Assembly: GCF_017743735.1 (NCBI RefSeq)
Contig: NZ_JAGHRO010000001.1
Span: 434,001-498,000 of the forward strand
Direction of reading: 5' to 3'
DNA length: 64,000 nt
Origin: Shimia sp. R9_2
Lineage (GTDB): Bacteria; Pseudomonadota; Alphaproteobacteria; Rhodobacterales; Rhodobacteraceae
The position numbers were made by a program, and so were the translations under genes. The notes beneath the pieces were generated by a model. That model saw only the letters and a list, made by a program, of their open reading frames with translations. It made no database searches and was not told where the DNA came from. Shown in pieces: positions 40,482-60,180 of the stretch. How positions within the stretch are numbered: the stretch's first letter is position 1; each line of letters starts with the position of its first letter.

Positions 40482-41186
40482 ATGAACGACATTCTGGCAG
40501 GGCTGTTGCATGCAGCCCATCTGATTTTCACCTTGGATGCGGATCTCATCGAGATCTCTTTGCGCTCTCTGCGGGTCACGCTGAGTGCTGTTTTGGTGTC
40601 TTCGTTGATTGGCTTGCCGCTGGGATGCTGGTTGGCTGTGCAGCGCTTCCGCTTTCGCCGTTTGGTGATTGCCACACTCAATGCATTGATGGGATTGCCG
40701 CCGGTTGTGGTGGGGCTGATCGTATATCTGCTGCTGTCACGCTCCGGGCCATTTGGCGTCTTTGGGTTGTTGTTCACACCAACCGCAATGATCATTGCGC
40801 AGGTCGTCATTCTGACCCCGCTGATCGCCTCGATTTCACATCAAGCGATCCGCGATCTCTGGGCGGAATACCATGACTTGTTGATTTCGCTGAACACCAC
40901 GCGGCGTCAACGCATTATGACCTTGCTGTGGGACGGGCGTCGGGCCTTGTTGACGGCGTCGCTTGCTGGCTTTGGCCGGGGCATCGGCGAGGTGGGGGCA
41001 ATCATGATTGTGGGCGGCAATATCGACCATGCCACACGGGTTCTGACCACGGCGATCTCCCTTGAGACAGGCAAAGGCAACTTTGCGCTGGCGTTGGCGC
41101 TTGGCTTCATTCTGATCGGCTTGGCGGTGGCGGTGAACCTGATCATCCACAGCCTTTCACGCACGGAGGTGAGTGGACGATGGTAG
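40482..41186 (+). CDS. tupB: Tungstate ABC transporter permease
   Basis: A 234-residue inner-membrane permease with about five to six TM helices and the EAA-type loop GRGIGEVGAIMIVGGNI. It resembles TupB of tungstate importers and also the ModB group. It is the first gene of tupB-tupC-tupA and overlaps tupC by seven bases. The import role is supported by the adjacent TupA-like binding protein. Confidence 0.88.
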   Translation: MNDILAGLLHAAHLIFTLDADLIEISLRSLRVTLSAVLVSSLIGLPLGCWLAVQRFRFRRLVIATLNALMGLPPVVVGLIVYLLLSRSGPFGVFGLLFTPTAMIIAQVVILTPLIASISHQAIRDLWAEYHDLLISLNTTRRQRIMTLLWDGRRALLTASLAGFGRGIGEVGAIMIVGGNIDHATRVLTTAISLETGKGNFALALALGFILIGLAVAVNLIIHSLSRTEVSGRW

Positions 41187-41899
41187 AGACGATCCTGCCT
41201 CTCAGCGTGGAGAATGCAGTTGTGCGCCGCCGTGGCAAAGTGCTGGTTGGCCCGATCAATGCCGAAGTATCCGAGACCGGGCTGACCATCGTTATGGGGC
41301 CAAATGGCGCGGGTAAAACAACGCTGTTGCGGCTGTTGCACGGCATGGAGCGATTGGCGTCCGGGGGGCAGCTCAAATGGCAGGTGCCAGAGCCGCAGGC
41401 GCGGGGGCAGCAGGGGTTTCTGTTTCAGGCGCCAATCATGATGCGCCGCAGTGCGCTTGAGAATGTGGCCTATCCTTTGACAGTGCATGGTGTGTCCCGA
41501 AAGGACGCGCGGAAGCAAGCAGCGGAGTGGCTTGCTCGTGTTGGTTTGCAGGACAGTGCAGACAAACAGGCGACGGTGCTTTCAGGAGGCGAGCGGCAAA
41601 AGCTGGCGCTGGCCCGCGCTTTGATTCGGCAACCGCAAATTCTGTTCTTGGATGAACCCTGTGCCAACCTTGACGGGCGCGCGACGCGCGAGTTTGAGGC
41701 CTTGCTGCACAGCGTGCATGAAGAGGGCACACGGATCGTGATGTCGACACATGACATCGGACAGGCCCGCAGACTGGCGCAAGACGTCTGGTTCATACAT
41801 CATGGCCAGATATTAGAAGCGACTTCTGCAGAGTTATTTTTTGAAGACCCAAAATCCAAGGAAGCGCGCGCTTTCCTTAAAGGAGACATTATCGAATGA
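41180..41899 (+). CDS. tupC: Tungstate ABC transporter ATP-binding protein
   Basis: A 239-residue ABC ATPase. Walker A GPNGAGKTT, signature LSGGERQKLALA, Walker B ILFLDEPCANLD and the H-loop STHDIGQ are intact. There is no extra C-terminal TOBE domain, unlike ModC. It overlaps tupB (ATGGTAG) and tupA (ATGA), so the three genes are translated together. Confidence 0.9.
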   Translation: MVETILPLSVENAVVRRRGKVLVGPINAEVSETGLTIVMGPNGAGKTTLLRLLHGMERLASGGQLKWQVPEPQARGQQGFLFQAPIMMRRSALENVAYPLTVHGVSRKDARKQAAEWLARVGLQDSADKQATVLSGGERQKLALARALIRQPQILFLDEPCANLDGRATREFEALLHSVHEEGTRIVMSTHDIGQARRLAQDVWFIHHGQILEATSAELFFEDPKSKEARAFLKGDIIE

Positions 41900-42705
41900 A
41901 AATGGGACCACTTCTTGCGCTGACACTCTGGGCATTGAGCACCGTGTCCGCGCAAGCCGAGAGCCTGAAAATGGCTGTCACAACGTCTTTCCACAATTCC
42001 GGTTTGGCCGAGGTGCTGCTGCCGGAAATTCAGAAAGACACCGGGATCGAAGTGCAATTGCTCGTGGTGGGGACCGGGCAGGCTTTGCGTCTTGGGGAAG
42101 CCGGAGACGTGGATGCCATTTTGGTGCATTCCAAAGCGGCGGAAGAGGAATTTGTTCTTGGCGGGTTCGGCGTGCATCGCCGCGAAATCATGTTCAATGA
42201 TTTTGTGTTTGTTGGCCCGTCTGCTGATCCGGCCGGGATTGCCGGCGCGGCTTCGGCAACGGAAGCGCTTGGCCTGATTGCACAAAACGGCGCATCGTTT
42301 GTGAGCCGAGGGGATGACAGCGGCACCCATAAGAAAGAGCTGGGGCTTTGGGCAGATGCTGGTATCGATGCCGAGGCGCGGGCCGTATCCTGGTACAAAG
42401 AGGCCGGTGCGGGCATGGGGGCTTCGCTGAACACGGCCTCAGGGCTGAACGCCTATATCATGACGGATCGCGCCAGCTGGTTGAAGTTTGGCAACAAAGG
42501 CGATCTTGCACTGCTTTATGCGGGCGATCCTGCTCTGTTCAACCAATATGCCTACCTGCCGGTGAGCCCGGAGATGCACGGCCATGTGAAGGCGGAGCTG
42601 GCGCTCCAGCTTGAGGATTGGCTGGTCAGTGACCGCGCACGTGACCTGATTGATGGGTATGTGCTGGAAGGCGGGCGGCTGTTCGTTTTCAACGCCAAAC
42701 GCTGA
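41896..42705 (+). CDS. tupA: Tungstate-binding protein
   Basis: A 269-residue exported binding protein with a signal peptide ending near AQA. The oxyanion-binding N-terminal segment MAVTTSFHNSGL, then GTGQALRLGEAGDVDAILVH and SRGDDSGTHKKELGLW match TupA rather than ModA. The C-terminal lobe-1 return is LEDWLVSDRARDLIDGY. Tungstate selectivity is a family inference; molybdate cannot be excluded. It lies upstream of a formate dehydrogenase locus, an enzyme class that often uses tungsten. Confidence 0.9.
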   Translation: MKMGPLLALTLWALSTVSAQAESLKMAVTTSFHNSGLAEVLLPEIQKDTGIEVQLLVVGTGQALRLGEAGDVDAILVHSKAAEEEFVLGGFGVHRREIMFNDFVFVGPSADPAGIAGAASATEALGLIAQNGASFVSRGDDSGTHKKELGLWADAGIDAEARAVSWYKEAGAGMGASLNTASGLNAYIMTDRASWLKFGNKGDLALLYAGDPALFNQYAYLPVSPEMHGHVKAELALQLEDWLVSDRARDLIDGYVLEGGRLFVFNAKR

Positions 42706-42713
42706 GTATGTTC

Positions 42714-42734
42714 GGGGGCTTTGATCAAGCCCCC
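42714..42734. terminator. Hairpin between convergent tupA and DUF6505 genes
   Basis: GGGGGCTT pairs perfectly with AAGCCCCC across a 5-base loop. The stop codon of the minus-strand DUF6505 gene is inside the hairpin. There is no T tract on either side, so termination is uncertain. Confidence 0.5.
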
Positions 42735-43210
42735 TCATCCGGCACGGAATGTATTGCAAACTGCTCCAGTTCAGCCTCTGCCGGGGCGATGGAGCGGAAT
42801 TGTTCGCGCACGCCAGCTTCGGTCAGCTCGCGCACCACTGTCAGCAGGGTGTTGGGGCTGTGATCGGCGCAAAGGTCAGCCATATGCGCGAGCTCTTCGG
42901 CAGCCACAGGTCGGGCGGCTTCCAGCGATGGGGCGCCGTAGATCTCGACAAAATGCTGCGCAAGGGCATCTGTAAGGGCTTCGAGTTCCGCGGGTTCGAT
43001 GGCTGTTACGGCCACGAAAGTCACGCGCCCGAAAGTTTCGACACCCAGCCAGCCATTGGTGAAAGCCTGACGGGCCTTGCCGGTGAGATCCGCGTCTGAC
43101 CAATTGGAGAATTCAAAGCCGCCGCTGATGGCCCATTCGCCGGTGCGGGCGGGGCTGTGGTAGACTCTCTGGTCGCTTTCATCAAAGTGGATGGCGCGTG
43201 CGAGCAGCAT
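42725..43210 (-). CDS. DUF6505 family protein
   Basis: A 161-residue soluble protein without signal peptide or cysteine motifs other than one Cys. It starts MLLARAIHFDESDQRVYHSPA and contains GEWAISGGFEFSNW and an acidic C-terminal half. I recall this family only from roseobacter formate dehydrogenase neighbourhoods. It shares one base with the upstream ligase-like gene, so it is the last cistron of the DUF6494-mrp-ligase-like-DUF6505 operon. Function unknown. Confidence 0.8.
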   Translation of the reverse strand: MLLARAIHFDESDQRVYHSPARTGEWAISGGFEFSNWSDADLTGKARQAFTNGWLGVETFGRVTFVAVTAIEPAELEALTDALAQHFVEIYGAPSLEAARPVAAEELAHMADLCADHSPNTLLTVVRELTEAGVREQFRSIAPAEAELEQFAIHSVPDEGA

Positions 43211-43935
43211 CAGGTGTTTCCTTCCAAAAGCGTTGTCAGCGGGAGCAGGCGGGTGTCTTCATCGCTGCGCAGCATGGCGCCGAAATGTTCATCTGTGCCG
43301 ACAAATGTGCCGGTCTCTGAGGTGTCACCAATCGTCCAGCTCACGTCTTCTCCAAGGTTATGTGCAAGGCCACGCCACTCGTTGTTGAGCGGCTTGAGGC
43401 CGTCTTCTTCCATGCGGTTGACCCAGACCAGCGTGTGGCGCACCCAGGCGCTGAGCAGGTCTTCGGGTGGGATATCGACACAGCCTTCCTCATAGAGCGC
43501 GGTTTGATCAGGTGTGTCCCCAGGCGTGTCTGCGTTGGCCGGGATCAGGGGCAGTTCGAGGCCGACCACAATCCAGTCGGGCATGGCGTTGGCATCTTCT
43601 GTTGAGGCCGCCACGCGCAGTTGACCGCAGCGTGCACCGTTCACCAAAATGCCGCCCGGCCATTCCAAGTGTACGGCGACCTCCGGCGGGGCCAGGGCAC
43701 CAAGTGCATTCTGAAAGCCGATGGCGCAGCTGATCAGCACGGGCATGGCTTCGTTCAAGGAAACCTCAGGGGCAAAGACAATCGCTGCGCGCAGCTGGTC
43801 GGCGGCCAGATTGTAGACCACCAATCCCGCGTCGCAGCCCATGATGGCCTGCGTCTGCGCCTTGGCAAAGGGGTCCGCCGCGCCCGAAAGCGCAAGGCCT
43901 TCAAAGAGCGGCGGGAATTGCGGTGCTGCCCTCAT
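43210..43935 (-). CDS. Biotin/lipoate-protein ligase-like protein with DUF4444-type C-terminus
   Basis: A 241-residue protein with a BPL/LplA-type core at residues 1-170 and a C-terminal SH3-like/DUF4444 part (residues about 175-240). The catalytic features of true ligases look eroded: the GRGRRG biotinoyl-AMP loop is replaced by GCDAGLVVYN, KWPND by LEWPGG, and the K of the GRKxxGIL segment by NGARCGQL. It may bind a ligand or partner rather than catalyse. Its stop overlaps DUF6505, and it follows the Mrp gene by a 4-base overlap. Confidence 0.8.
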   Translation of the reverse strand: MRAAPQFPPLFEGLALSGAADPFAKAQTQAIMGCDAGLVVYNLAADQLRAAIVFAPEVSLNEAMPVLISCAIGFQNALGALAPPEVAVHLEWPGGILVNGARCGQLRVAASTEDANAMPDWIVVGLELPLIPANADTPGDTPDQTALYEEGCVDIPPEDLLSAWVRHTLVWVNRMEEDGLKPLNNEWRGLAHNLGEDVSWTIGDTSETGTFVGTDEHFGAMLRSDEDTRLLPLTTLLEGNT

Positions 43936-44996
43936 GCGGTGCCATCCGCAATCAGTTGACGCGCCAATTTGCGGAAGACCTGTGCTTGCGGTGAGTCCGG
44001 CTTGGAGACAACAATCGGTGCCCCGCCATCCGCTGCCAGACGGATGTCCATCGCCAGAGGAATTTCCGCCAGGAGCGGCACGTTCAGCTTCTCAGCTTCC
44101 GCTGCGACGCCGCCATGGCCAAAGACATGTTCCTCATGCCCGCAGTTGGAGCAGATATGGGTGCTCATGTTTTCGATCATGCCCACGATTGGCGTGCCGA
44201 GTTTTTCAAACATGTTGATGCCTTTGCGGGCATCCAAGAGCGCGATGTCCTGCGGGGTGGAGACCACAAGCGCACCGGTGAGTTCTGCTTTTTGCGCCAG
44301 CGTCATCTGCACGTCGCCGGTGCCGGGTGGCAGATCGACGATCAGCACGTCAAGCGCGCCCCATTGCACCTGATTGAGCATCTGTTGCAAAGCGCCCATC
44401 AGCATGGGGCCACGCCAGACCACAGCCTCTTCTTCGCGGGTCATGAGGCCAATGGACATCATGGTCACCCCGTGGTTGCGCATGGGGAGAATGGTTTTGC
44501 CATCCGGGCTTGCCGGACGGCCAGAGACGCCAAGCATGCGCGGCTGAGACGGGCCGTAGACATCTGCATCCAGCAGACCAACACGCCGGCCTTCGGCGGC
44601 CAAAGCGGCGGCCAGATTCGCTGAGACCGTGGATTTGCCCACGCCGCCTTTGCCTGAGGCGACGGCAAGAATACGGTCAATGCCGGGAATTTTTTGCGGG
44701 CCTTGTGGTTTGCTTGGACGGGATGGTTTGAGATCGGGCGGCGGGGATTTCGCCTCATGTGCGGTCATGACAATGGCCACTTTGGAAACCCCTTCAAGCG
44801 CGTTCAGGCGGCTTTCAATGTCGGCCTTGATCGGCTGCATTGCCTGAGCGCGCGATGGATCGATTTCCATCACAAACCGCACCTCGCCATTGTCGACGGA
44901 AAGCGCGCGCACCATGCCCGAGGCGACCAGATCGCTGCCGGAGGCGGGATCAGTGAAGTCTTTGAGAATATTCAGAATGTCGTCGCGGTTGGCCAT
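43932..44996 (-). CDS. apbC: Mrp/NBP35 (ApbC) family iron-sulfur carrier ATPase
   Basis: A 354-residue protein with an N-terminal MIP18/DUF59 domain (residues about 1-85), a proline-rich linker, and a P-loop NTPase starting AVASGKGGVGKSTVSANLA. The bridging [4Fe-4S] site is the CxxC in HICSNCGHEEHVFG. The family assembles and delivers Fe-S clusters. Position in the formate dehydrogenase locus suggests it serves the many clusters encoded nearby, although it may be the general housekeeping copy. Confidence 0.94.
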   Translation of the reverse strand: MANRDDILNILKDFTDPASGSDLVASGMVRALSVDNGEVRFVMEIDPSRAQAMQPIKADIESRLNALEGVSKVAIVMTAHEAKSPPPDLKPSRPSKPQGPQKIPGIDRILAVASGKGGVGKSTVSANLAAALAAEGRRVGLLDADVYGPSQPRMLGVSGRPASPDGKTILPMRNHGVTMMSIGLMTREEEAVVWRGPMLMGALQQMLNQVQWGALDVLIVDLPPGTGDVQMTLAQKAELTGALVVSTPQDIALLDARKGINMFEKLGTPIVGMIENMSTHICSNCGHEEHVFGHGGVAAEAEKLNVPLLAEIPLAMDIRLAADGGAPIVVSKPDSPQAQVFRKLARQLIADGTA

Positions 44997-45197
44997 TCAT
45001 TCGCGTCCTTTGATATCGCCGGTGACCACATGCTCCATCTCCAACCCGTCGATGGTGAGCACCACTTTGGCATTGAAGGTTTTTCCCGCGGTGGCCTCAG
45101 CCCCCGCCGCGCGCATGGCTTCCTCGATGGCTTGCTGGCTTGTCACGCCAACCTGCTTGAGGAACTTGCGCATACTCATGTTGAAATCGTCGCTCAT
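44997..45197 (-). CDS. DUF6494 family small protein
   Basis: A 66-residue protein: MSDDFNMSMRKFLKQVGVTS, then QQAIEEAMRAAG and a beta hairpin with TFNAKVVLTIDGLEMEH. It has no cysteines or signal. It is the first cistron, immediately abutting the Mrp gene with no gap. Function unknown. The start at 45197 is chosen because a purine-rich AGGACACCG precedes it; the frame extends further. Confidence 0.8.
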   Translation of the reverse strand: MSDDFNMSMRKFLKQVGVTSQQAIEEAMRAAGAEATAGKTFNAKVVLTIDGLEMEHVVTGDIKGRE

Positions 45198-45216
45198 TGC
45201 GGTGTCCTTTGCTAAA

Positions 45217-45264: not shown

Positions 45265-45274
45265 GGTTTGCTAC

Positions 45275-46039
45275 ATGGTGATATCTCGGATGGCACGATG
45301 GGTTTTGGCAATGGCGATCAGCATCGCCGCCATGGCTGGTACCGCTTTGGCGCAGGGGAAAACCACCACGCTCTACGTCTCGCCGGACCTGATCGAAACC
45401 GGTGTGATCAAATTCATGATGCCGCGGTTCATGCTTAAGCACGGGGTGCGGGTCACGCTTGTGGAGGATGCCAGCGCGGGCGCGGCGGCGCTGGTCGAAG
45501 ATGGTCAGCGCGCGGTTTTTTCCAAAGATGGCGTGACCTATGGGCTGACCGTTTCCAACGCAGATGACGTGCATATGGCCACTTTTGCCAAATGGTTGAC
45601 CGGAGAGGTCGGTCAGCGCACGGTGCTGACGTACAAACGCGATGGCGCAGAGATTTTTGCGCCCCCGCTTGTCACAGAAGCTGCGGTTGAGGCGACGGTG
45701 TTTGACGGAGACGCCACGCGCGGGGCGGATCTGGCGCTCACGGCCTGTGGCCGCTGTCATGTGGTGGGCGACGCCAACCGGATGTCGGGTATCGGCTCCA
45801 CCCCCAGCTTTGCCGTGCTGCGCAGCTTGGCGGATTGGGAGGAGCGTTTCGCGGCCTTCTATGCGCTGAACCCGCATCCGGCGTTCACGGTGATCCCGGA
45901 TTTGACCGAGCCGTTTGACGAAACCCGCCCGTCGCCCATCAGCCCGGTCACTCTCAGCCTTGAGGAGCTGGAGAACATCCTGGCCTATGCCGCGACGGTG
46001 GTCCCGGCAGATTTGGGCAAGCCGATTGCGCATCAGTGA
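45275..46039 (+). CDS. Cytochrome c with N-terminal binding-protein-lobe-like domain
   Basis: A 254-residue exported protein with a signal peptide ending GTALAQ. Residues about 28-130 resemble the first lobe of a TupA-like binding protein joined directly to its C-terminal return (TTLYVSPDLIETGVIKFMM; then FAKWLTGEVGQRTVLTY and GAEIFAP), with the second lobe absent. Residues about 145-250 are a class I cytochrome c with heme motif CGRCH (158-162). It is likely a periplasmic electron carrier of the formate dehydrogenase locus. It ends tail-to-tail with the poly-ferredoxin gene, overlapping by seven bases. Confidence 0.8.
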   Translation: MVISRMARWVLAMAISIAAMAGTALAQGKTTTLYVSPDLIETGVIKFMMPRFMLKHGVRVTLVEDASAGAAALVEDGQRAVFSKDGVTYGLTVSNADDVHMATFAKWLTGEVGQRTVLTYKRDGAEIFAPPLVTEAAVEATVFDGDATRGADLALTACGRCHVVGDANRMSGIGSTPSFAVLRSLADWEERFAAFYALNPHPAFTVIPDLTEPFDETRPSPISPVTLSLEELENILAYAATVVPADLGKPIAHQ

Positions 46040-48006
46040 TCCCGGCGCTTGCTGAAGTAGTCCTCAGATGTGCGAACGCGCGGGCGATCTGCGGCGGCGA
46101 AGGGATTGCTGGGCTGATGGAACTGCGCGTTCACTCGGCAATCATCACACATCTGGATCATCCGCGCCGCATCTGAGGTGGCGAACATGGCGTGTTTGCC
46201 CGCGAGTTTGTCCATGATGCGTTCGATGGTGGATTTCACTCCAAATGGTGTGCCGCATTCCACGCATTCAAAGGGCTCTTCTTCATGCACAACCTGTTGG
46301 GTAAGCGCGGCATCAGACGTGTCAAACTGGGGCACCAGCGAAATCGCATTTTCCGGGCAGGCATTGGCGCAGAGACCGCATTGCAGGCAGGCGTCCTCCT
46401 GAAAGCGCAGCTGTGGCTTATCGGGGTTGTCCCCAAGTGCGCCCGCCGGACAGAGTGACGCGCAGGACAGGCACAATGTGCAGGCGTCTTTGTTCACCAG
46501 TACGGCACCGTATGGTGCCTGCTCCGGCAGAGCGATGGGAGCTTCTACACTTGGCTGTAGAGCTTTCACCGCAAGACGGGTGACCTGCCTGCGGTTGCCA
46601 AGCGGCAGGATGGGGTTTGCCAATGCGGTTTGCGGCGCGGTGTTATAGAGCATGTCGCATAGCGCCGAAGGCTCTTGCGGCTCCAAAAGGCGAAGCGTGT
46701 TATCCCCGCCGCTTAGGACTTGCGCCAGCGCAAGCTCGCTTTCCAAAGCGCTGCGATCTGTGGTGGGAGACACCAGAACGTCCACGCTGGCAAAGCCGCT
46801 GGCGAGGCTTGCGAGCATTTCGGCGTGGCCAAATCCGCTGACACGTTCGAGATCCATCGGGATCACATCCGCAGGCAGGCCGCGATCAAATCGTGCGGCG
46901 AGGGCGATCATCTCTGCGCCGAAACTGCGGTCATGCACCATAAGGCGCGGCGCGGTGCCGCCCGCGGAGCGATAGGCCTCCGCCAGAGCGTTGATGCGTG
47001 CAAAGAGCGCGCTGACGGGCGGGTCATCGTAGGTGATTGCGCCAGAGGGGCAAAGGGCGGCACAGGCACCGCATCCGGCGCAGATATTGGGATCGATATC
47101 CACATGATCGCCGGACGGATGGATCGCAGACGTAGGGCAGGCATCCAGACATTTGGTGCAAGCGGTCTGCTCTGCGCGTGAGTGGGCACAGAGGCTTGGC
47201 TCAAGCGCCAGATAGAGAGGTTTCTCAAATGTCCCAACAAGGTGGGAGGCTTCGAGGATCGCGGCGTGCACGGCGGGCAAGCTGTTTGGATCCGCTCTCA
47301 GGTAGCCTTCACGCTTTTCCGGAGCGGGAACCAGCGCGGGTTCACCACGCAGATCAAGGATGATGTCGCAGGTGGTTTGTGCGCCGTTTCGGGCATCGCC
47401 AAACTGTAGCGGGCCACGCCCGCCGGGTTCCAATTGCTGCAGGGCGTCGATGTAAACGTCAAACTGTCCAAGCGCACCGGTGACACGTTTGATGCGCCCG
47501 GCGATGACATCGCATCCACGCTCGATCGGGGCTTCGGCACCGCTTGGAACAAGCACCGTGACGCTCAGGAACTCTGAAAGCTGCTGCGCGGCCTCCATGG
47601 CCACATCCGGTGCGCCCAGGATCAGGCACTGGCCGTCAGAGATAATGTCATAGGTTTTGGTTTCTGGCGTCGGGCGCAGCGCATCGGCGAGAAGCGCGGC
47701 CATTTTGGGGGCGGCTTGATCTGCATTCTCGGACCAGCCGGCGCGGTCGCGTAGGTCCACACAAAGGGGGCTGTCCACCTCAAGATCTTCGGCCAGTTCG
47801 ACAAAGAAATCCTGTTCCTGCTGACAGGCGATGACCGTATTTTCACCGCCGCCTGTTGCATTCAAAAGTTCGGCGGCCGCAGAAGCGTCTTTGGTGCAAA
47901 GGCCGTTGTGGACTTTAGAGCAGCTCAGACCGCTGGTTGCGGACAATTGCTCTGCGTCCAGAGTCATGCTGTCAGAACAATTACATAGAATCAAAGTCTT
48001 GGACAC
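46033..48006 (-). CDS. Multi-[4Fe-4S] ferredoxin-like protein
   Basis: A 657-residue soluble iron-sulfur protein. An N-terminal Cys-containing region (ILCNCSDSM, SGLSCSKVHNGLC) is followed by a ferredoxin pair at residues about 273-320 (CTKCLDACP; CAGCGACAALCP) and another near 535-580 (CTLCLSCASLCP; CLQCGLCANACP). CVECGTPFG and CDDCRV follow near the C-terminus. The start is a GTG at 48006 with an excellent GGAGGAA site; the frame reaches 48090 but that extension is spurious. It probably passes electrons to or from formate dehydrogenase, or helps load clusters. No signal peptide is seen. Confidence 0.88.
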   Translation of the reverse strand: MSKTLILCNCSDSMTLDAEQLSATSGLSCSKVHNGLCTKDASAAAELLNATGGGENTVIACQQEQDFFVELAEDLEVDSPLCVDLRDRAGWSENADQAAPKMAALLADALRPTPETKTYDIISDGQCLILGAPDVAMEAAQQLSEFLSVTVLVPSGAEAPIERGCDVIAGRIKRVTGALGQFDVYIDALQQLEPGGRGPLQFGDARNGAQTTCDIILDLRGEPALVPAPEKREGYLRADPNSLPAVHAAILEASHLVGTFEKPLYLALEPSLCAHSRAEQTACTKCLDACPTSAIHPSGDHVDIDPNICAGCGACAALCPSGAITYDDPPVSALFARINALAEAYRSAGGTAPRLMVHDRSFGAEMIALAARFDRGLPADVIPMDLERVSGFGHAEMLASLASGFASVDVLVSPTTDRSALESELALAQVLSGGDNTLRLLEPQEPSALCDMLYNTAPQTALANPILPLGNRRQVTRLAVKALQPSVEAPIALPEQAPYGAVLVNKDACTLCLSCASLCPAGALGDNPDKPQLRFQEDACLQCGLCANACPENAISLVPQFDTSDAALTQQVVHEEEPFECVECGTPFGVKSTIERIMDKLAGKHAMFATSDAARMIQMCDDCRVNAQFHQPSNPFAAADRPRVRTSEDYFSKRRDH

Positions 48007-50172: not shown

Positions 50173-50221
50173 GCGCAAAACGAAACGTCGGGCCCCAACC
50201 GACATGAAGAAGGAGCAGACC

Positions 50222-50413
50222 ATGAGCCAGCCAGAGGAAAAAGGCGCCAGCCGGCGCGACTTTCTGAAGCTCGCCACGACGGCAGCCCCAGCTGCAGCCG
50301 CAGTGGTGGCCCTTTCGCCTGACACGGCGGAAGCCCAACCGGCTGACCTGTCCAGCAACAAGATGCAGGACACTGCGCACACCCGCGCTTACCTCGACAG
50401 CGCCCGGTTCTGA
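50222..50413 (+). CDS. Small twin-arginine-signal protein, FdhX-like
   Basis: A 63-residue protein with a classic Tat signal (SRRDFLK at residues 10-16, then AAPAAAAVVALSP) and a short polar tail ending YLDSARF. Similar small Tat proteins (FdhX in Shewanella) are encoded before the catalytic formate dehydrogenase subunit; their role is unclear. The ATG at 50222 has AAGGAG upstream; an in-frame ATG at 50204 is possible. It is too small to hold a cofactor. Confidence 0.88.
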   Translation: MSQPEEKGASRRDFLKLATTAAPAAAAVVALSPDTAEAQPADLSSNKMQDTAHTRAYLDSARF

Positions 50414-53413: not shown

Positions 53414-53425
53414 GGAGGAAGAGAA

Positions 53426-54019
53426 ATGGCACGAGCGAAATTTCTCTGCGACGCGGAACGCTGCATCGAATGCAACGCCTGCGTGACGGCCTGTAAGAAC
53501 GAGCACGAGGTGCCTTGGGGCATCAACCGGCGTCGCGTTGTGACAATCAACGACGGCACACCGGGTGAACGTTCGATTTCTGTGGCATGCATGCACTGTT
53601 CAGATGCGCCTTGTATGGCGGTCTGTCCGGTGGATTGCTTCTATCAGAACGAAGAAGGTGTGGTACTGCACTCCAAAGACCTGTGCATTGGCTGTGGCTA
53701 TTGCTTCTACGCGTGTCCGTTCGGCGCGCCGCAATATCCGCAGGCAGGCAACTTTGGCAGCCGCGGCAAGATGGACAAATGCACCTTCTGTGCAGGTGGT
53801 CCGGAAGAGAACCACTCCACTGCGGAATTCGCCAAATATGGCCGCAACCGCATCGCAGAGGGCAAGCTGCCGATCTGCGCGGAGATGTGTTCAACCAAAG
53901 CCCTTCTGGCGGGTGACGGGGATGTTGTCTCCGCGATTTACCGTGAACGCGTTGTGGCGCGCGGTTTTGGCACCGGCGCTTGGGGCTGGGGCACCGCTTA
54001 TGAGCAAAAAGGCGGCTGA
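53426..54019 (+). CDS. fdh3B: Formate dehydrogenase iron-sulfur (beta) subunit
   Basis: A 197-residue four-cluster ferredoxin: CIECNACVTACKNEHEVPWG, CMHCSDAPCMAVCPVDC, CIGCGYCFYACPFGAPQYP, and a split last site CTFCAGG with CAEMC. The protein has no signal peptide of its own, so it is probably carried across the membrane with the Tat-borne catalytic subunit. It passes electrons from the catalytic subunit to the cytochrome b subunit. It starts 12 bases after fdhA. Confidence 0.95.
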   Translation: MARAKFLCDAERCIECNACVTACKNEHEVPWGINRRRVVTINDGTPGERSISVACMHCSDAPCMAVCPVDCFYQNEEGVVLHSKDLCIGCGYCFYACPFGAPQYPQAGNFGSRGKMDKCTFCAGGPEENHSTAEFAKYGRNRIAEGKLPICAEMCSTKALLAGDGDVVSAIYRERVVARGFGTGAWGWGTAYEQKGG

Positions 54020-54032
54020 TACCGTCAAAATC

Positions 54033-54060: not shown

Positions 54061-54139
54061 TTGATGTTTCTAAGAACTCTTTCATGCGCGGTTATGGGCA
54101 GAGCCCTGACCCCATGGTTTCAGATGATATGAGGATGTG

Positions 54140-55336
54140 ATGCGCGCGCTTCTCTGGATGGCTCTTTCGTTCATGTTGGCATGGCCAGCTTTGGCTCAAG
54201 ACACGGCACCTGATCGCAGTTCAACGGGCGGCGCTCAGACGCTGGAAGATATCATGGCGCGACAGCGTGGTGAGAAACTGGACGACAGTTTCCGGCGCGA
54301 TGCGACCGGGCAGGGCAATGTCGAAGCGTTGATTGGCCAGCTGGGCACGCGCGGCGTAGCGTCAGATTCCGAAGTGTTTCGTGCATTGCGCTATGGCAGT
54401 GCCAACACCACCACGCAGGCCAGCGGGCCAACCAGCACATTGCTCATTCAAGACAGTGGTATGGCCTGGCTGACGTTCCGCGAAGGGCCGCTGCTCACTT
54501 ATGGGCTTTATCTGCTGGGAGGCATGACGGCTGTTATTGCACTGTTTTGGCTGATCCGCGGCAGGATCATGATCGAAGGGGCCAAGACCGGGCGGAATAT
54601 CATCCGCTTCCTGGCGATTGAACGGTTTGCTCATTGGCTGATGGGCGTGTCCTTCATTGTCCTTGGGATCACCGGCCTTGTGCTGATCGCCGGTCGTAAG
54701 TTTATCCTGCCCTGGATGGGGCTCGAAGCCTATGCCACCATCGCACTGGCCGGCAAATGGGTGCACAACAACATCGCCTGGGCCTTTATGCTGGGACTGG
54801 CGATGGTCTTTGTCATGTGGGTGCATCACAACATTCCGGATCGCACGGACATCAAGTGGCTGGCCAAAGGCGGTGGGCTGTTTTCCAAAGGCGTGCATCC
54901 GCCTGCCAAAAAATTCAACGCAGGGCAGAAGATCATTTTCTGGTCTGTGATTGTGCTGGGCGTTTCGATCTCGGCATCCGGTCTCGCGCTGCTGTTCCCG
55001 TTTGAGCTGCCGATGTTTGCCAAGACGTTCAATATTTTGAACATGACTGGTCTGCCGCAGTTGGTCACGGGCGGTGCGTTGCCGGAAGTGCTCTCCCCTT
55101 ATGAAGAAATGCAGCTCAGCCAGCTTTGGCATGGGATCGTGGCCTTTGTCTTTATCGCCATCATCGTGGCGCACATCTATCTTGGGTCCGTGGGCATGGA
55201 AGGCGCGATTGAGACCATGGCGACCGGTGAGGTGGATGAGCAATGGGCGAAGGAGCACCATTCAATCTGGTATGAGGAGGAGCTTGCCAAAGCGCAGGCA
55301 AAATCTGGCGCTGATCGAGCGACACCAGCGGAGTAA
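54140..55336 (+). CDS. Formate dehydrogenase cytochrome b (gamma) subunit
   Basis: A 398-residue membrane protein. A signal peptide (to about LAQD) and a ~100-residue N-terminal extension precede the di-heme cytochrome b domain. TM segments include YGLYLLGGMTAVIALFWLI, FAHWLMGVSFIVLGITGLVL, the histidine-bearing KWVHNNIAWAFMLGLAMVF and WHGIVAFVFIAIIVAHIYLG. It would pass electrons to quinone or a cytochrome. ATG 54140 is used; the frame also has a GTG at 54137. The long N-terminal part is absent from many homologues. Confidence 0.92.
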   Translation: MRALLWMALSFMLAWPALAQDTAPDRSSTGGAQTLEDIMARQRGEKLDDSFRRDATGQGNVEALIGQLGTRGVASDSEVFRALRYGSANTTTQASGPTSTLLIQDSGMAWLTFREGPLLTYGLYLLGGMTAVIALFWLIRGRIMIEGAKTGRNIIRFLAIERFAHWLMGVSFIVLGITGLVLIAGRKFILPWMGLEAYATIALAGKWVHNNIAWAFMLGLAMVFVMWVHHNIPDRTDIKWLAKGGGLFSKGVHPPAKKFNAGQKIIFWSVIVLGVSISASGLALLFPFELPMFAKTFNILNMTGLPQLVTGGALPEVLSPYEEMQLSQLWHGIVAFVFIAIIVAHIYLGSVGMEGAIETMATGEVDEQWAKEHHSIWYEEELAKAQAKSGADRATPAE

Positions 55337-55338
55337 TC

Positions 55339-56634
55339 ATGCGGGCTGTCGCGCTGTTTCTTGGTTTCCTGTTTTGGGCCACCGGTGCTGTGGCTGGGGA
55401 GTTCTTTCAACTGACCGGCCACGGCGGCCCGATCAAAGGCATCGCTGTCTCCCCGGACGGCCGTCAGATCCTGACCGCAAGTTTCGACAATTCCCTTGGT
55501 CTTTGGCGAGATCAGGAACCGCTGTGGCTGGAAGGGCATGAGGCAGCGGTCAACGCGGTGGTTTTTGTGACTGACACTCTGGCGGTTTCCGCCGGGGATG
55601 ATTTTGCCGTGCGGCTGTGGGATCTGAGTGCTGGAACGTCGCAGATTCTGGGGCAGCACAAGGGCAAGGTGATGGCGCTGCGAGTGGCGCCTGATGGGCG
55701 CAGTGTCGCAAGCGCCAGTTGGGATGGATCGGTTGGCATCTGGCCGCTGAGCGGTGACGCGTCGCGTCTTATTCAAGTCGGCAGCAATGTGAATGACGTT
55801 GCCTTTGCACAGGACGGTGCCGCGCTGTTTTCCGCCTCTGCAGACGGCAAGATACGGCTCTATGACACCGCGACTGGCGATTTGAGGCAGCTTTTCCTGA
55901 CCAATGGTTTCGGTGTGAACACTTTGGTTTTGCGTGAGGATCTTGGTTGGCTGGCTTTTGGCGCGGTGGATGGCGTCACAAAAATTGTCACCCCTGACAC
56001 TGCGGAGCTGATCAAGGACATCACGCTTGAGCGGCGGCCGATATTGGCCATGACCAGCAGCCGGGATGGCCGTCACCTCGCTGTGGGTGATGGCGAAGGT
56101 TATATTCTGATGCTGAACACTGAGAATTGGTCGATTGCCAATGACATCAGGGCCACCCATCGCGGGCCGATCTGGGCGTTGGCTTTTTCGGCTGATGGGG
56201 AAAATATTCATGCGGGTGGCCTTGATGAGGCGATGTTCAGCTGGCCGCTGTCTGATCCGGATGACACCCCCCGGATGGTGGCGGAAGGTCGCGCGTTTCT
56301 GAACGGCAATGACAGCGCATCCAATGGCGAGCGCCAGTTTCAGCGCAAATGCTCCATTTGCCATACGCTCACCGGAGACAGTGCCAGACGAGCTGGGCCG
56401 ACGCTCAAGGATGTTTTTGGGCGCGAAGCGGGCACGGTTTCTGACTACAGCTACTCCGACACTTTGCTGACATCTGATGTGATTTGGACAAGCCAAACCA
56501 TTGATGCGCTTTTTGATTTGGGGCCGGACGTGTATATTGCGGGAACCAAAATGCCGGTTCAACGCATCACCCGCGCCGAAGACCGCGCAGATTTGATCGC
56601 CTATCTGCGCCTTTACAGCGACTTTGAGGACTAA
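55339..56634 (+). CDS. WD40 repeat-cytochrome c fusion protein
   Basis: A 431-residue exported protein. After a signal peptide (to about AVAG), at least six WD40-type repeats occupy residues about 22-310, for example SPDGRQILTASFDNSLGLW, APDGRSVASASWDGSVGIW and AQDGAALFSASADGKIRLY. A C-terminal cytochrome c domain carries the heme motif CSICH at residues 338-342 and a probable distal Met in AGTKMPV. It follows the gamma subunit by two bases, so it is part of the formate dehydrogenase operon and may be a periplasmic electron acceptor or docking protein. Confidence 0.9.
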   Translation: MRAVALFLGFLFWATGAVAGEFFQLTGHGGPIKGIAVSPDGRQILTASFDNSLGLWRDQEPLWLEGHEAAVNAVVFVTDTLAVSAGDDFAVRLWDLSAGTSQILGQHKGKVMALRVAPDGRSVASASWDGSVGIWPLSGDASRLIQVGSNVNDVAFAQDGAALFSASADGKIRLYDTATGDLRQLFLTNGFGVNTLVLREDLGWLAFGAVDGVTKIVTPDTAELIKDITLERRPILAMTSSRDGRHLAVGDGEGYILMLNTENWSIANDIRATHRGPIWALAFSADGENIHAGGLDEAMFSWPLSDPDDTPRMVAEGRAFLNGNDSASNGERQFQRKCSICHTLTGDSARRAGPTLKDVFGREAGTVSDYSYSDTLLTSDVIWTSQTIDALFDLGPDVYIAGTKMPVQRITRAEDRADLIAYLRLYSDFED

Positions 56635-56638
56635 AGAT

Positions 56639-56764
56639 ATGAGAGTGTTTTTCCTGGCCTGCGCAGCGGTGGCTGCCATTTCCGTGGGCGCCTACTATGG
56701 GCTGCACGCCATCGGGTTTTCTGCCAGCGATGTTGCCAGTGGAACAGCCGTAAGGTTGGATTGA
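56639..56764 (+). CDS. 41-residue membrane microprotein
   Basis: A short open frame four bases after the WD40-cytochrome gene and four bases before the regulator gene. It encodes MRVFFLACAAVAAISVGAYY, then GLHAIGFSASDVASGTAVRLD: a single hydrophobic helix or signal anchor and a short polar tail. The tight spacing on both sides and the plausible codon use support translation, but I recognise no family. It could be a subunit-stabilising peptide of the formate dehydrogenase. Confidence 0.6.
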   Translation: MRVFFLACAAVAAISVGAYYGLHAIGFSASDVASGTAVRLD

Positions 56765-56768
56765 CCAC

Positions 56769-58151
56769 ATGAACCAAATAGACCGTGCGTCTGCGCAAAC
56801 CAAACGTCCTTCTGAATTTGGCATTGGCCTGTCGACAGCTTCGGTGCTGGTGGTGGATGACGAGCCGGGCATCCGCAACTTCATCGTCAAAATTCTCGAC
56901 CCGGTGGTCGGACGCATAGAGCAGGCGGCCAATACGGATGTGGCTAGCCGCCTGTTGGATCAGAACCATTTTGACATCGTCATTCTTGATAATGTGATGC
57001 CCGGAACCTCGGGGCTTGAGTGGCTGAGCGAGCAGCGCAAGCTTGGGTTCTTTGCTGACACCATTTTGATCACCGCATTTGCAGATATGGACACCGCGAT
57101 TGAAGCGATGCGCGCGGGGGCCGTCGACTTTGTTTTGAAGCCTTTCCGCTCCAACCAGATTTTGAACGCGGTGGCACGCTGTGTGGATCGGGTGAACCTG
57201 CGGCGGGAGAATTACCTGCTGAAGTATGAGCTTGCTGCGGGCAACGAGCATGTGCGCGCGCGCCTGCTTGGCAGTTCGCCGCAGATTGAGACCATACGCT
57301 CCACGATGGCCCGTGCCGCGCCTTTGCCAACGCCGGTCTTGCTGACGGGGGATACCGGTACGGGCAAAGAGGTCGCCGCGCGTGCGTTGCACATGATGTC
57401 ACCGCGCGCCGACAAACCTTTTGTGCCAATCAATTGCGCGACCATTGCCGGTGACATGATTGAGCATGAGCTTTTTGGGCATATCCGTCAGGACGCGGGC
57501 GGGCGCACGGTACGTCATGATGGTGTGTTCATGAATGCCAATGGCGGCACGCTCTACCTCGATGAGATCGTGGAACTGCCGCTTCCGGTGCAGGCGGCAC
57601 TGCTGCGTGTGGTGGAACATCAGAAAATCCGGCCTGTGGGCTCCTCTCGGGAAGTGCCGCTGGACCTGCGGTTTCTCTTTGCCACCAACGCCGATCTTGA
57701 AGCGGCGGTCAAAGATGGCCGCCTAAGAGAAGACCTGTATCACCGCATCAATGTGCTGAACATTCAGATGCCACCTTTGCAAAACCGCGAGGGGGATTTG
57801 AAAGAGCTGGCTTTGATGTTCTTGCAGCAGATCTCAAAGTCGCTCGGTGTGCCGCCACTGACCCTGTCTGAGGGGGTGCTTTTGAATTTGGCGCGGTATG
57901 ACTGGCCGGGGAATGTGCGCGAGTTGCGCAACCTGATTGAGCGGTCGCTGATTGTGGGCGAATGGCCGGCGGAGTTTGCGGCCAACGGCGCCGAAGAAGA
58001 GGTTGCAGCGGTGGACAGCCTCGCGGCGGTGGAGCGTCGGCATATTCTGACGGTGCTGGCCGCCTGCGATGGCAATCGTGCGGAGGCCGCACGGCGATTG
58101 GGGATTTCCCGTAAAACCATCGATCGCAAATGCGCAATGTGGAATGACTGA
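56769..58151 (+). CDS. NtrC-type response regulator lacking the GAFTGA loop
   Basis: A 460-residue regulator. The receiver has Asp30, Asp31, phospho-acceptor Asp74 (ILDNVMPGTSG) and Lys124. The AAA+ domain has Walker A GDTGTGKE at 194-201, ELFGH at 234-238 and Walker B GTLYLDE at 260-266. A Fis-type helix-turn-helix ends the protein (GNRAEAARRLGISRKTIDRK). The sigma-54 contact loop GAFTGA, expected right after ELFGH, is replaced by QDAGGR. R. capsulatus HupR and NtrC are known precedents that work without sigma-54. It overlaps the kinase gene by eight bases. Confidence 0.93.
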   Translation: MNQIDRASAQTKRPSEFGIGLSTASVLVVDDEPGIRNFIVKILDPVVGRIEQAANTDVASRLLDQNHFDIVILDNVMPGTSGLEWLSEQRKLGFFADTILITAFADMDTAIEAMRAGAVDFVLKPFRSNQILNAVARCVDRVNLRRENYLLKYELAAGNEHVRARLLGSSPQIETIRSTMARAAPLPTPVLLTGDTGTGKEVAARALHMMSPRADKPFVPINCATIAGDMIEHELFGHIRQDAGGRTVRHDGVFMNANGGTLYLDEIVELPLPVQAALLRVVEHQKIRPVGSSREVPLDLRFLFATNADLEAAVKDGRLREDLYHRINVLNIQMPPLQNREGDLKELALMFLQQISKSLGVPPLTLSEGVLLNLARYDWPGNVRELRNLIERSLIVGEWPAEFAANGAEEEVAAVDSLAAVERRHILTVLAACDGNRAEAARRLGISRKTIDRKCAMWND

Positions 58152-60180
58152 CACAAGCGCCAAAGGGTCATCTTCGGCATCAAGGCCAACCTGGGCCTGG
58201 CTGCCACGTCGCCGCTCCGCCTCTGTGCGGATGCGGCTGTTGGCCATCGCGCTTTTGCCAACGCTGGTCATCATGCCGCTGTTCTTTATCATTACGGCGG
58301 TGAATTGGTCCTCGCGGTTTGATAACTTGCTGATTGCCAAAGTGAATGGCGAGCTGACCATTGCGGATCAGTACCTGTCTCAGCTGCTTGAAAACAGTGA
58401 TCTGCGGATGCAGGCCTTGGCGGCCTCGGCGGATTTTGTGGATCATGTCCGGTCCGACGATCAGGATGGCATCGCGCGCCTTCTGCAGGTGCAGCGGGTC
58501 CAGCTTGGGTTGGATTTCCTTTATTACCTTGCCGCGGATGGCTCTGTGATCTCCTCTCCCCGCTTGGTGGATGACAGAAATCTGGCGCGGTGGCCTGTTG
58601 TCTCTCAGGCGCTGGCCGGGTTTGGTTCTGCCCAGATTGACGTCTTTTCAGGTGAGGATCTGGCCGAGGTCTCCTCCGATCTGGCTGAGCTTGCACGTAT
58701 TAAACTGGTGCCGACACAGGCTGCGGTGCCGACAGAACGTGTCGAGGAGACCCGGGGCATGATGGTGCATGCGGCCACGCCGGTGTCAGAAGACGGACGG
58801 CACGGTGCTTTGGTTGGGGGCGTTCTGCTCAATCGCAATCTCCCGTTTATTGATACGATCAACGATCTGGTCTATCCGACCGCGAGCTTGACCGAAGGCA
58901 GCCAAGGCACCGCGACGCTGTTTTTGGATGATGTGCGCATCTCCACCAATGTGCGCCTCTTTCAGGATGAGCGTGCCTTGGGCACCCGTGTATCTGCTGT
59001 GGTACGTGAGGCTGTGTTGGATCGGGGTGAGGTCTGGCTCGATCGCGCTTTTGTGGTGAACGATTGGTACATCTCAGCTTATGAGCCGGTCACGGATAGC
59101 TTTGGTAATCGCGTCGGGATGCTCTACGTCGGCTTTCTGGATCAGCCATTTCGAGATGCAAAGTTCTCGACCATCCTGACTTTTGCGGTCGCGTTTGCGG
59201 TGATTGTGCTGATTTCTGTCCCGATCTTTTTGCGCTGGGCGCGGCAGATTTTTGCGCCGCTGGAGCGGATGTTGCGCACGATCACGCGGGTGGAAGGGGG
59301 TGATCTGGGGGCGCGTACTGGCGTTGAAAACAGCGATGAGGAGATCGCGCGCGTGGCGGCGCAGATGGATGCGCTGCTTGAGCAAATTCAGGAGCGCGAT
59401 CGGGAGTTGAACCGGCGGGTGGCCGCAAGGACGCAAGATTTGGCAGAAGCAAACCGGCGGCTGGAAGCCACGACGCGGCAGCTGGTTGTGTCCGAAAAAC
59501 TGGCGGCAGTTGGTGAAATCGCGGCGGGCATCGCGCATGAGATCAACAATCCCATTCAGGTGATCCAGGGGAATCTGGATGTGATACGCGTGCAGCTTGG
59601 GGATCGGATTGAGGATATTCGCACCGAGCTGAAACTGATTGATGAACAGACGCATTCGATTTTTCTGATTGTGAACAAGCTTTTGCAGTTCACCCGACCA
59701 GATGAATACGCGCAAGGCAGCGAACTTCATCAACCCTCGGCGGTGATGGTGGATACCGTGCCGCTGGTGCAGCATTTGCTGAACACCGGCGACATTGCGT
59801 TGCAGTTGGAGCTGGAAAGCGAAGGGGCGGTTGCGATCAACCGTACGGAGCTGCAGCAGGTGTTGATCAATCTGATCGTCAACGCCATTCACGCGATGCC
59901 TGAGGGGGGATCATTGCGGGTCTCTACCAAGGACGACACGCGAGACGATCAGGCTGGTGTGTTGATCGAGGTGGCGGACACAGGTGTCGGCATGACAGAC
60001 GCGCATCTGAGCCGGATTTTCGACCCGTTTTTCACCACCAAACAGGGGGAGGGCACCGGGTTGGGGCTGTCGATCTCGCGCAAACTGGTGGAGCTTTATG
60101 ATGGCGCCATAGAGGCGGACAGCACCATTGGTGAAGGCACGGTGTTCCGCCTGTGGTTCCCATGCGCAGATCAAGGTTAG
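58144..60180 (+). CDS. Membrane sensor histidine kinase
   Basis: A 678-residue kinase. TM1 is at about residues 30-54, a periplasmic double-Cache-like sensor follows, and TM2 is near 343-365, then HAMP and a coiled coil. The phospho-acceptor His465 is in IAAGIAHEINNPIQVI; the catalytic domain has NLIVNAIHAMPEG, DTGVGM and GTGLGLS. It is the cognate kinase of the NtrC-like regulator. The start at 58144 gives MTDTSAKG; an earlier start at 58069 lies in the regulator gene. The Cache-type sensor suggests a small organic acid signal, perhaps formate. Confidence 0.93.
   Translation: MTDTSAKGSSSASRPTWAWLPRRRSASVRMRLLAIALLPTLVIMPLFFIITAVNWSSRFDNLLIAKVNGELTIADQYLSQLLENSDLRMQALAASADFVDHVRSDDQDGIARLLQVQRVQLGLDFLYYLAADGSVISSPRLVDDRNLARWPVVSQALAGFGSAQIDVFSGEDLAEVSSDLAELARIKLVPTQAAVPTERVEETRGMMVHAATPVSEDGRHGALVGGVLLNRNLPFIDTINDLVYPTASLTEGSQGTATLFLDDVRISTNVRLFQDERALGTRVSAVVREAVLDRGEVWLDRAFVVNDWYISAYEPVTDSFGNRVGMLYVGFLDQPFRDAKFSTILTFAVAFAVIVLISVPIFLRWARQIFAPLERMLRTITRVEGGDLGARTGVENSDEEIARVAAQMDALLEQIQERDRELNRRVAARTQDLAEANRRLEATTRQLVVSEKLAAVGEIAAGIAHEINNPIQVIQGNLDVIRVQLGDRIEDIRTELKLIDEQTHSIFLIVNKLLQFTRPDEYAQGSELHQPSAVMVDTVPLVQHLLNTGDIALQLELESEGAVAINRTELQQVLINLIVNAIHAMPEGGSLRVSTKDDTRDDQAGVLIEVADTGVGMTDAHLSRIFDPFFTTKQGEGTGLGLSISRKLVELYDGAIEADSTIGEGTVFRLWFPCADQG

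Follow-up and report, generated by a model that had tools for sequence, protein, structure and literature searches.

How tungsten (W), as opposed to molybdenum (Mo), is inserted into the enzymes of aerobic bacteria is poorly understood (PMC13197769). Here, we analyze a block of genes around a periplasmic formate dehydrogenase (FDH), FdhABC, at positions 40482 to 60180 of a 64,000-nucleotide stretch of DNA from Shimia sp. R9_2, referred to below as the window. It corresponds to C11:434001-498000 of a 4.47-Mb genome (G000), and the nearest named locus is that of Shimia sp. R10_1, with 97% identity in the chimeric cytochrome described below. Five described systems resemble parts of this block, and the papers cited are drawn upon for the passages that concern these genes. 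(i) Genes for DUF3305, DUF3306, TorD or DmsD, and "fdh tat" are linked to fdhGHI operons (PMC4464133). Core genes and the association of a chaperone with FDH are as in the window, and the grouping of DUF3305, DUF3306, TorD, and FdhX with FDH is already known from that work. In contrast, the ligase-like protein, DUF6505, DUF6494, Mrp, the chimeric cytochrome, and a microprotein are features of the window that those passages do not mention. (ii) In Methylorubrum extorquens, moeA1-mobB-tupBCA is linked to maturation of the W-containing FDH1 (MeFDH1) (PMC13197769). The likeness is that an aerobic alphaproteobacterium ties tungstate import to the maturation of a W-FDH, whereas MeFDH1 differs as a two-subunit FDH1-type enzyme with other maturation genes. 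(iii) XoxGJ of Methylacidiphilum is a fusion of cytochrome c with a periplasmic binding protein, and a separate xoxJ is kept (PMC8498564). We regard it as the closest working analogy to the chimeric cytochrome, with which it would share the fusion of cytochrome c to a binding protein, a role as redox partner of a rare-metal dehydrogenase, and the retention of a separate binding-protein gene. However, XoxGJ serves a lanthanide methanol dehydrogenase, whereas the chimera has lobe A of TupA only and adjoins FDH; the two are likened by architecture, not by sequence. (iv) The sequence and fold of lobe A of TupA (5my5, 3lr1; PMC5517513) recur in the chimera, and a full TupA is also encoded in the locus; compared with TupA, the chimera lacks lobe B and the tungstate ligands and has gained a heme domain. 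(v) The biotin protein ligase BirA shares with the ligase-like protein a homologous domain and a small C-terminal domain, with 3bfm as a solved relative, but the FDH-linked domain lacks the RGRRG loop and KWPND. Within the open-licence literature, the passages considered of a survey of Mo and W use (PMC6147048) do not treat this locus.

We propose, with a probability of roughly 0.6, that the block forms one unit for a membrane-anchored periplasmic FdhABC, which would most likely contain W, and that the lobe of the chimera serves as a docking surface for its heme. The main gains over previous knowledge are a cytochrome that carries a TupA lobe, a probable pseudo-ligase, and a natural experiment in the distribution of TupA that points to W in a marine FDH. 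The locus thus provides a short list of FDH-bound parts, in which the pseudo-ligase and DUF6505 co-occur with FDH almost perfectly in the order and DUF6494 and the microprotein are linked.

Co-occurrence and order of genes around FDH

We sampled 149 genomes of the order, of which 80 contain a close FdhA (E ≤ 1e-150; FDH+) and 69 contain none (FDH−). For the ligase, only strong matches (E of about 1e-45 or better) were counted as FDH-type, and weaker ones (1e-8 to 4e-14) were excluded. The original prediction had taken the whole block to be one functional system, and its genes of unassigned function do track FDH, the reverse of the refuting pattern in which they would mostly lack it: the FDH-type ligase was found in 80/80 FDH+ against 0/69 FDH− genomes, DUF6505 in 78/80 against 0/69 (G020 and G023 have the ligase, and DUF6505 was not found in them), and DUF6494 in 66/80 against 2/69 (G117 and, weakly at E = 7.8e-5, G143). 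The chimeric cytochrome occurs in 46/80 against 0/69 genomes (47 matches including G110, which has the cytochrome half alone) and TupA in 80/80 against 31/69. Within 15 kb of FdhA in the 80 FDH+ genomes are the ligase in 77, DUF6505 in 75, DUF6494 in 63, TupA in 57, and the chimera in 43. In one genome (G144), there are two copies of the periplasmic FdhA (on C42 and C36).

Gene order is far from chance. We cut 20-kb slices around FdhA from 43 relatives' loci, the ends of which can remove response regulator and kinase genes. Poly-ferredoxin (PFD), DUF3305, DUF3306, TorD, and FdhABC are each present in 43/43 slices, the ligase and Mrp in 40/43, DUF6505 in 39/43, and FdhX in 37/43; less frequent are a WD40-cytochrome (24/43), the chimera (23/43), the response regulator (12/43), and the kinase (9/43). 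A further 80 named loci, retrieved via the cytochrome and drawn from genomes partly shared with the slice set, contain the ligase in 76, Mrp in 77, DUF6505 in 75, DUF6494 in 73, and PFD in 78. Many of these contigs are short and some absences are contig ends, although in L142 Mrp and DUF6494 are missing from the interior of the contig; DUF6494 was also not found in L098, L106, L122, and L137 of this set. The only split loci are those of G052 and G122, in which a block DUF6505-ligase-Mrp-DUF6494-chimera lies apart from FDH, elsewhere in the genome. The G082 slice without a ligase is counted as a contig break, since a contig end falls between the two parts of the locus and both pieces stop at contig ends.

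Could the cluster reflect shared descent only, its genes having separate roles and being kept together by chance or coregulation? The order-level genomes listed all belong to one family, so that the counts are not independent and coinheritance inflates them. Nevertheless, we consider this explanation very unlikely. In a second FDH clade (FdhA about 60% identical; L014, L020, L029, L041, and L043), the order is ligase-DUF6505-DUF3305-DUF3306-TorD-FdhABC-Mrp, and this different layout indicates that the association of the ligase and DUF6505 with FDH outlived rearrangement. Moreover, both genes are absent from all 69 FDH− genomes, and even where they are separated from FDH, in G052 and G122, they still co-occur with it. 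In addition to the single-family sampling, class-level data weigh against the proposal of one unit: among 250 genomes of the class, 36 of which contain FdhA, the ligase (tallied by eye) was found at E ≤ 1e-20 in 31/36 FDH+ against 8/214 other genomes and, with a cut near 1e-28, in 26/36 against 1/214. It is thus less strictly tied to FDH in the class than in the order.

Gene content of the block

All genes named in the original prediction are present in the order given there, as follows.

40482..41186, + strand: tupB, tungstate-type ATP-binding cassette (ABC) permease (NF038017, 264 bits; NF041773 TupB, 173 bits, cut-off of 320 not reached)
41180..41899, + strand: tupC, ABC ATPase (PF00005, 2.1e-26)
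41896..42705, + strand: tupA, putative tungstate-binding protein (PF12849, 6e-37; NF041772, 196 bits, cut-off of 400 not reached)
42725..43210, − strand: DUF6505 (PF20115, 3.4e-82)
43210..43935, − strand: FDH-linked probable pseudo-ligase (BPL_LplA_LipB_2, 3.3e-74, plus DUF4444)
43932..44996, − strand: Mrp/NBP35-type Fe-S carrier P-loop protein (PF10609 [Mrp/ParA], 6e-100; PF01883)
44997..45197, − strand: DUF6494 small protein (PF20104, 4.3e-30)
45275..46039, + strand: chimeric cytochrome (signal peptide, TupA lobe A at about residues 29 to 125, then c-type heme domain)
46033..48006, − strand: PFD, cytoplasmic (Fer4 families; start codon by eye)
48330..48887, + strand: DUF3305 (PF11749, 8.9e-36)
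48884..49567, + strand: DUF3306 (PF11748, 7.7e-18; TTG start overlapping the DUF3305 stop, by eye)
49564..50172, + strand: TorD/NarJ-type chaperone (PF02613, 3.1e-28)
50204..50413, + strand: FdhX, small twin-arginine translocation (Tat)-signal protein (TIGR02811, 35 bits, cut-off of 48.45 not reached)
50519..53413, + strand: FdhA, catalytic subunit with Tat signal (PF00384 [Molybdopterin], 1.5e-51; 9vap_A, 1400.8 bits)
53426..54019, + strand: FdhB, ferredoxin-type iron-sulfur subunit (Fer4 families; 9vap_B, 2.7e-98)
54137..55336, + strand: FdhC, cytochrome b subunit (TIGR01583, 144.9 bits, cut-off of 115.85 passed)
55339..56634, + strand: WD40 propeller fused to cytochrome c (PF00400, 6.1e-35; PF00034, 1.4e-8 at 328-424)
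56639..56764, + strand: 41-residue single-pass microprotein (motif GFSsxxxxSGxxVRLD; profile family)
56769..58151, + strand: sigma-54-type response regulator, loosely linked (PF00158, PF00072)
58144..60180, + strand: sensor histidine kinase with sCache domain, loosely linked (start by eye)

FdhA is a Tat-signal molybdopterin enzyme. Its nearest solved structure is chain A of the FDH 9vap and that of FdhB is chain B, and these matches, together with an FdhC above the TIGR01583 cut-off, identify FdhABC as a 9vap-type FDH. FdhA scores 480 bits against TIGR01591, the NCBIfam Fdh-alpha equivalog, below its cut-off of 666 bits, and is therefore not filed under it. A Cys-His pair, which we take to be the active-site motif, was read by eye, with no selenocysteine codon. 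Several of the labels proposed earlier need qualification: tupA, tupB, FdhX, and FdhA fall below NCBIfam equivalog cut-offs, and the genes previously called "cytochrome c" and "ligase-like", though both present, turned out to be a cytochrome of which one half is TupA and a ligase without ligase motifs, two properties that had been overlooked.

Distribution of TupA and the metal of FDH

The window TupA keeps the ligand residues T29, T30, S31, H78, R138, T144, and D191, mapped by eye on the published protein (PMC5517513), and these seven are invariant in 20 aligned rows; the first Thr of the published TTTS is a Val. Since tupA and tupB do not reach the NF041772 and NF041773 cut-offs, the system is filed only as TupABC-like, and we regard it as a putative tungstate importer, although TupA may have a role with molybdate. 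Two TupA subtypes were observed, a VTTS type (60 to 78% identical to the window TupA) and an STTS type (48 to 51%).

For the other FDHs of the sampled genomes, we distinguished two groups by TIGR01591 score among the matches listed, namely, FDH1-like (717 to 756 bits) and Fds-like (905 to 962 bits); G060 and G065, just below the matches listed, were placed in the former by best E value. The labels rest on one PDB-searched representative each: the FDH1-like one matches the W-FDH 7vw6 at 1307 bits, and the Fds-like one matches 6tg9, which we take to be the Mo enzyme of Rhodobacter capsulatus, at 1754 bits. Among the matches listed, which an FDH1-like enzyme below 717 bits would escape, FDH1-like enzymes occur in 104/149 genomes and Fds-like enzymes in 46/149, with both in only 2, a near exclusion. 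The window genome also has an FDH1-like enzyme that matches 7vw6 (G000:C11:135608-137653, locus L002). TupA was found in 111/112 genomes with a periplasmic FDH or an FDH1-like enzyme and, again among the matches listed, in 0/37 genomes with neither. We initially considered that tup tracks the periplasmic FDH only; this was rejected, as it also tracks FDH1-like enzymes.

The informative genomes are those that combine the periplasmic FDH with an Fds-like enzyme and have no FDH1-like enzyme among the matches listed. TupA is present in 8/8 of these (six genera), with the tupA start no more than 16 kb from that of FdhA in each, compared with 0/36 genomes that have only an Fds-like enzyme among the matches listed. 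In one genus (g6, six genomes sampled), only G022 has a periplasmic FDH and only G022 has TupA. This contrast, a correlation over FDH types only, is the best evidence here for W in the periplasmic FDH and supports the view that this enzyme is probably W dependent.

Three observations weigh against this view. (i) Four of the eight genomes (G020, G039, G066, and G078) each include one more TIGR01591 match, a third, beyond the matches listed, so that the strict contrast is 4/4 against 0/36; the remaining four (G022, G023, G125, and G134) have at most two TIGR01591 matches. (ii) G138 has an FDH1-like enzyme (among the matches listed) and no TupA match, as the sole exception of the 112 genomes. (iii) No periplasmic FDH is present in 31/111 TupA genomes, and tupA lies within 15 kb of FdhA in 57/80, which indicates that tup is not dedicated to this FDH everywhere. 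The W dependence proposed from the window gained support from the parallel between TupA and both the periplasmic and W-FDH1 enzymes, but not the Fds type, whereas an importer exclusive to this FDH did not hold up. It is also conceivable that tupBCA serves mainly a cytosolic NAD-linked W-FDH1, the periplasmic FDH using Mo with tup as a mere neighbor. This would agree with the 72/80 FDH+ genomes that also have an FDH1-like enzyme, with the 29 + 2 genomes that combine TupA and an FDH1-like enzyme without the periplasmic FDH (both counts among the matches listed), and with the further TIGR01591 match in half of the eight informative genomes. We nevertheless judge it unlikely, given that in all eight tupA is close to FdhA, or in four of four under the strict count, while the 36 Fds-only genomes have none.

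Two further arrangements were seen. In L055, from a genome (G117) that has an FDH1-like enzyme and no periplasmic FDH, DUF6494 and tupA are neighbors, and in L029 (G067:C31:76384-78432), an FDH1-like gene adjoins the periplasmic FDH locus and DUF6494.

A cytochrome with one lobe of TupA

Neither Pfam nor NCBIfam recognizes the gene at 45275-46039 itself, and single-sequence searches gave no significant relative; among 60 relatives, Pfam detects cytochrome c families only, with Cytochrom_C (PF00034) in 19/60. Profile comparisons show that it is a chimera of a TupA-type lobe A, without lobe B, and a CxxCH cytochrome, an architecture that is not described by Pfam or NCBIfam and is directly testable. 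The top four PDB matches of its profile are 3muq, 3lr1, 3cvg (a putative metal-binding protein), and 5my5 (titled TupA), with E values of 1.3e-4 to 3.2e-3; 3muq and 3lr1 match profile positions 21-71 at their chain start, and 3cvg and 5my5 match about 85-126 at their chain end. Further down the list are mostly cytochromes c at about 136-162. The structures 3muq, 3lr1, and 3kn3 are treated as TupA in PMC5517513, the relevant passages of which assign A2-R76 and Y201-E251 to lobe A and A91-Q200 to lobe B. Compared with these limits, the matched segments indicate that the chimera keeps lobe A and is without lobe B.

A profile of the N-terminal half was then run against 27,409 open reading frames (ORFs) from 183 records, counting ORFs, a few of which are the same gene in two loci. 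It returned 175 matches, namely, 107 chimera ORFs (103 distinct) and 68 TupA ORFs (68 distinct), and nothing else; reversed ORFs gave no match to this profile. In 31/68 TupA proteins, the match consists of two ordered pieces with 120 to 167 residues skipped (best E, 3.6e-16). The TupA proteins best matched are about 45 to 51% identical to the window TupA, and those of the window subtype match weakly. In an AlphaFold2 model (predicted local distance difference test [pLDDT] score of 88.5, about 97 in the lobe), a compact alpha/beta domain precedes a helical domain; the predicted template modeling score of only 0.58 leaves the relative placing of the two domains uncertain. A Foldseek search with this model placed 3muq, 3lr1, and 5my5 at ranks 1, 2, and 4 (probability of 0.99 to 1.00). 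Other results weigh against TupA ancestry of the lobe or an indispensable role of the chimera. The two-part pattern is lacking in 37/68 TupA matches, and 11/79 TupA ORFs were missed by the profile. With hhalign, the chimera and TupA align over 50 N-terminal columns only (91%, E = 1e-6), so that homology of the C-terminal part of the lobe rests on HMMER. The Foldseek E values are weak (0.016 to 0.05), and LysR effector domains and other binding proteins were also listed. Finally, the chimera is missing from 34/80 FDH+ genomes (no match in 33 and the cytochrome half only in G110), and it is therefore not essential.

Tungstate is bound in TupA by TTTS and His59 of lobe A and by Arg118, Thr124, and Asp170 of lobe B (PMC5517513, relevant passages). 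By eye, these ligands have no counterpart in the chimera. TupA is defined by two lobes with ligands from both, and the chimera has neither lobe B nor the original lobe A ligands, which are replaced; TupA-style binding of tungstate is thus unlikely. In the heme half, the motif C158-x-x-C161-H162 is complete in 60/60 rows; C158, C161, H162, and H201 are invariant (60/60), whereas M170 is found in 45/60. The invariance of H162 and H201 suggests His/His ligation and a low potential, and the Pro-His pair at H201 recurs in seven lone cytochromes.

These lone cytochromes emerged from a class-level search with the chimera profile, which matched 21/250 genomes. Full-length chimeras were found in three genomes, all from the family of the window, and eight genomes gave a match to the cytochrome half (G260 very weak). 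The lobe half was matched in the remaining ten and, in addition, in G254; all eleven places are TupA genes. In other orders of the class, both halves occur as separate genes, some beside FDH: lone cytochromes adjoin FDH in G149, G333, G243, and G254, in the last case with tupA and the WD40-cytochrome as neighbors, and are away from it in G226, G330, and G379. In G243, a lobe-less cytochrome of 144 residues occupies the chimera slot between DUF6494 and PFD, which indicates that the cytochrome is the constant part and that the lobe was added or lost.

One could also read the chimera as a sensor or adaptor for the supply of tungstate, given that its lobe derives from the TupA family and that a TupA match is present in each of the 80 FDH+ genomes. 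The lobe would dock on TupB or TupA and the heme would report redox state, so that import is linked to FDH activity. This seems quite improbable to us, because by eye nothing in the chimera corresponds to the TTS and His ligands of lobe A and lobe B is missing, because in G052 and G122 the chimera accompanies the ligase/Mrp block, apart from FDH and without tupA in the slice, and because the cytochrome, as seen in G243, is the constant part of the slot.

The pseudo-ligase and other maturation-type genes

Seven BirA-like paralogues of the same order are detected by a profile built from 21 FDH-linked ligases (E values of 1e-19 to 1e-26), which indicates that the FDH-linked ligase is homologous to BirA. 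In BirA, the RGRRG loop and KWPND are needed for catalysis. Within the ligase domain, each is present in 0/120 FDH-linked ligases, whereas the seven BirA-like paralogues have (G/A)RGRRG and KWPND in 7/7 over the whole protein and in 6/7 and 7/7, respectively, within the matched envelope. In the aligned FDH-linked ligases, the loop is deleted and KWPND is replaced, for example, by EWPGG. When the open frames are taken whole, motif matches occur in up to 10 of the 120, all outside the ligase domain in frames that probably start too early. Seven weaker matches fetched from the group excluded above (E of 1e-8 to 4e-14) are BirA-like. Judged by these motifs, the FDH-linked ligase is a probable pseudo-ligase. 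A solved structure of a relative, 3bfm, carries the title "Biotin protein ligase-like protein of unknown function", and the strict company that the pseudo-ligase keeps with FDH suggests a likely role for this orphan structure.

DUF3305 of the window aligns with positions 222-369 of the MobA model NF011058, which includes a DUF3305 domain; the score of 60 bits is far below the model cut-off of 820. This match provides a hint that DUF3305 may act near cofactor guanylylation or insertion. For DUF6505, a model with a pLDDT of 80 gave no fold match in Foldseek (best E, 1.0).

Electron route and proposed mechanism

An earlier suggestion was that formate oxidation feeds a c-type cytochrome pool. FdhC, a cytochrome b subunit of the quinone type, is present in 43/43 loci, as opposed to 46/80 genomes for the chimera and 24/43 loci for the WD40-cytochrome. 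Electrons therefore probably go mainly to quinone, with both cytochromes as accessories, and a c-type pool is not supported as the main route. Although two cytochrome c genes flank FDH in the window, a cytochrome as main electron acceptor of FDH has little to recommend it, since 11/43 slices show neither cytochrome (one of them, from G122, has the chimera elsewhere). Both cytochromes were found in 15 slices, the chimera only in 8, and the WD40-cytochrome only in 9. The idea that the two replace each other was rejected on these counts of both and neither. The WD40-cytochrome contains a GTKMP sequence, read by eye, and is also present in class-level FDH loci.

We therefore return to the single FDH unit, which may operate as follows. 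TupBCA would import tungstate. In the cell, PFD, Mrp, DUF3305/DUF3306, TorD, the pseudo-ligase, DUF6505, and DUF6494 would handle the loading or checking of clusters and cofactor prior to Tat export, and FdhX would be exported together with FdhA. In the periplasm, FdhA would oxidize formate and pass electrons via FdhB and FdhC to quinone. The chimera, an addition in 46/80 FDH+ genomes of the order, would be secreted, and its TupA lobe A would act as a docking surface that holds a low-potential His/His heme against FDH or its assembly partners, providing a second electron outlet or a route for reductive activation. In kind, the fusion would resemble XoxGJ, which serves methanol dehydrogenase. 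A bolder version, which we consider a long shot, is that a TupA cut to one lobe became the heme partner of a W enzyme and a dead biotin ligase an obligatory maturation factor, the lobe physically linking TupA/TupB supply to FDH; this would make the block a dedicated system for the biogenesis and wiring of W-FDH in aerobic marine bacteria.

Regulators, flanks, and microprotein

The two-component genes are loosely linked to the FDH block. Their inclusion as regulators of the system has weak backing: they are present in 12/43 and 9/43 slices, and a search of the window for sigma-54 promoters with up to 2 mismatches gave 39 matches, compared with 48.75 expected by chance, and hence no signal. By eye from their translations, the flanking genes seem unrelated (a cysteine-synthase-like gene at 39005-40099 and a sulfatase-like gene at 60187-61929).

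The microprotein, for which Pfam gave no match, combines a single hydrophobic stretch with a conserved tail of the form GFS...SGxxVRLD. Its profile family was not found in the 14 loci L054 to L067, which hold no periplasmic FDH; it is present in 5/10 class-level FDH loci (L150, L151, L153, L155, and L165) and in 36/43 FDH loci of the order, in all 36 of which it lies within 700 nucleotides of FdhC or the WD40-cytochrome. The microprotein is plausibly a small subunit of FDH.

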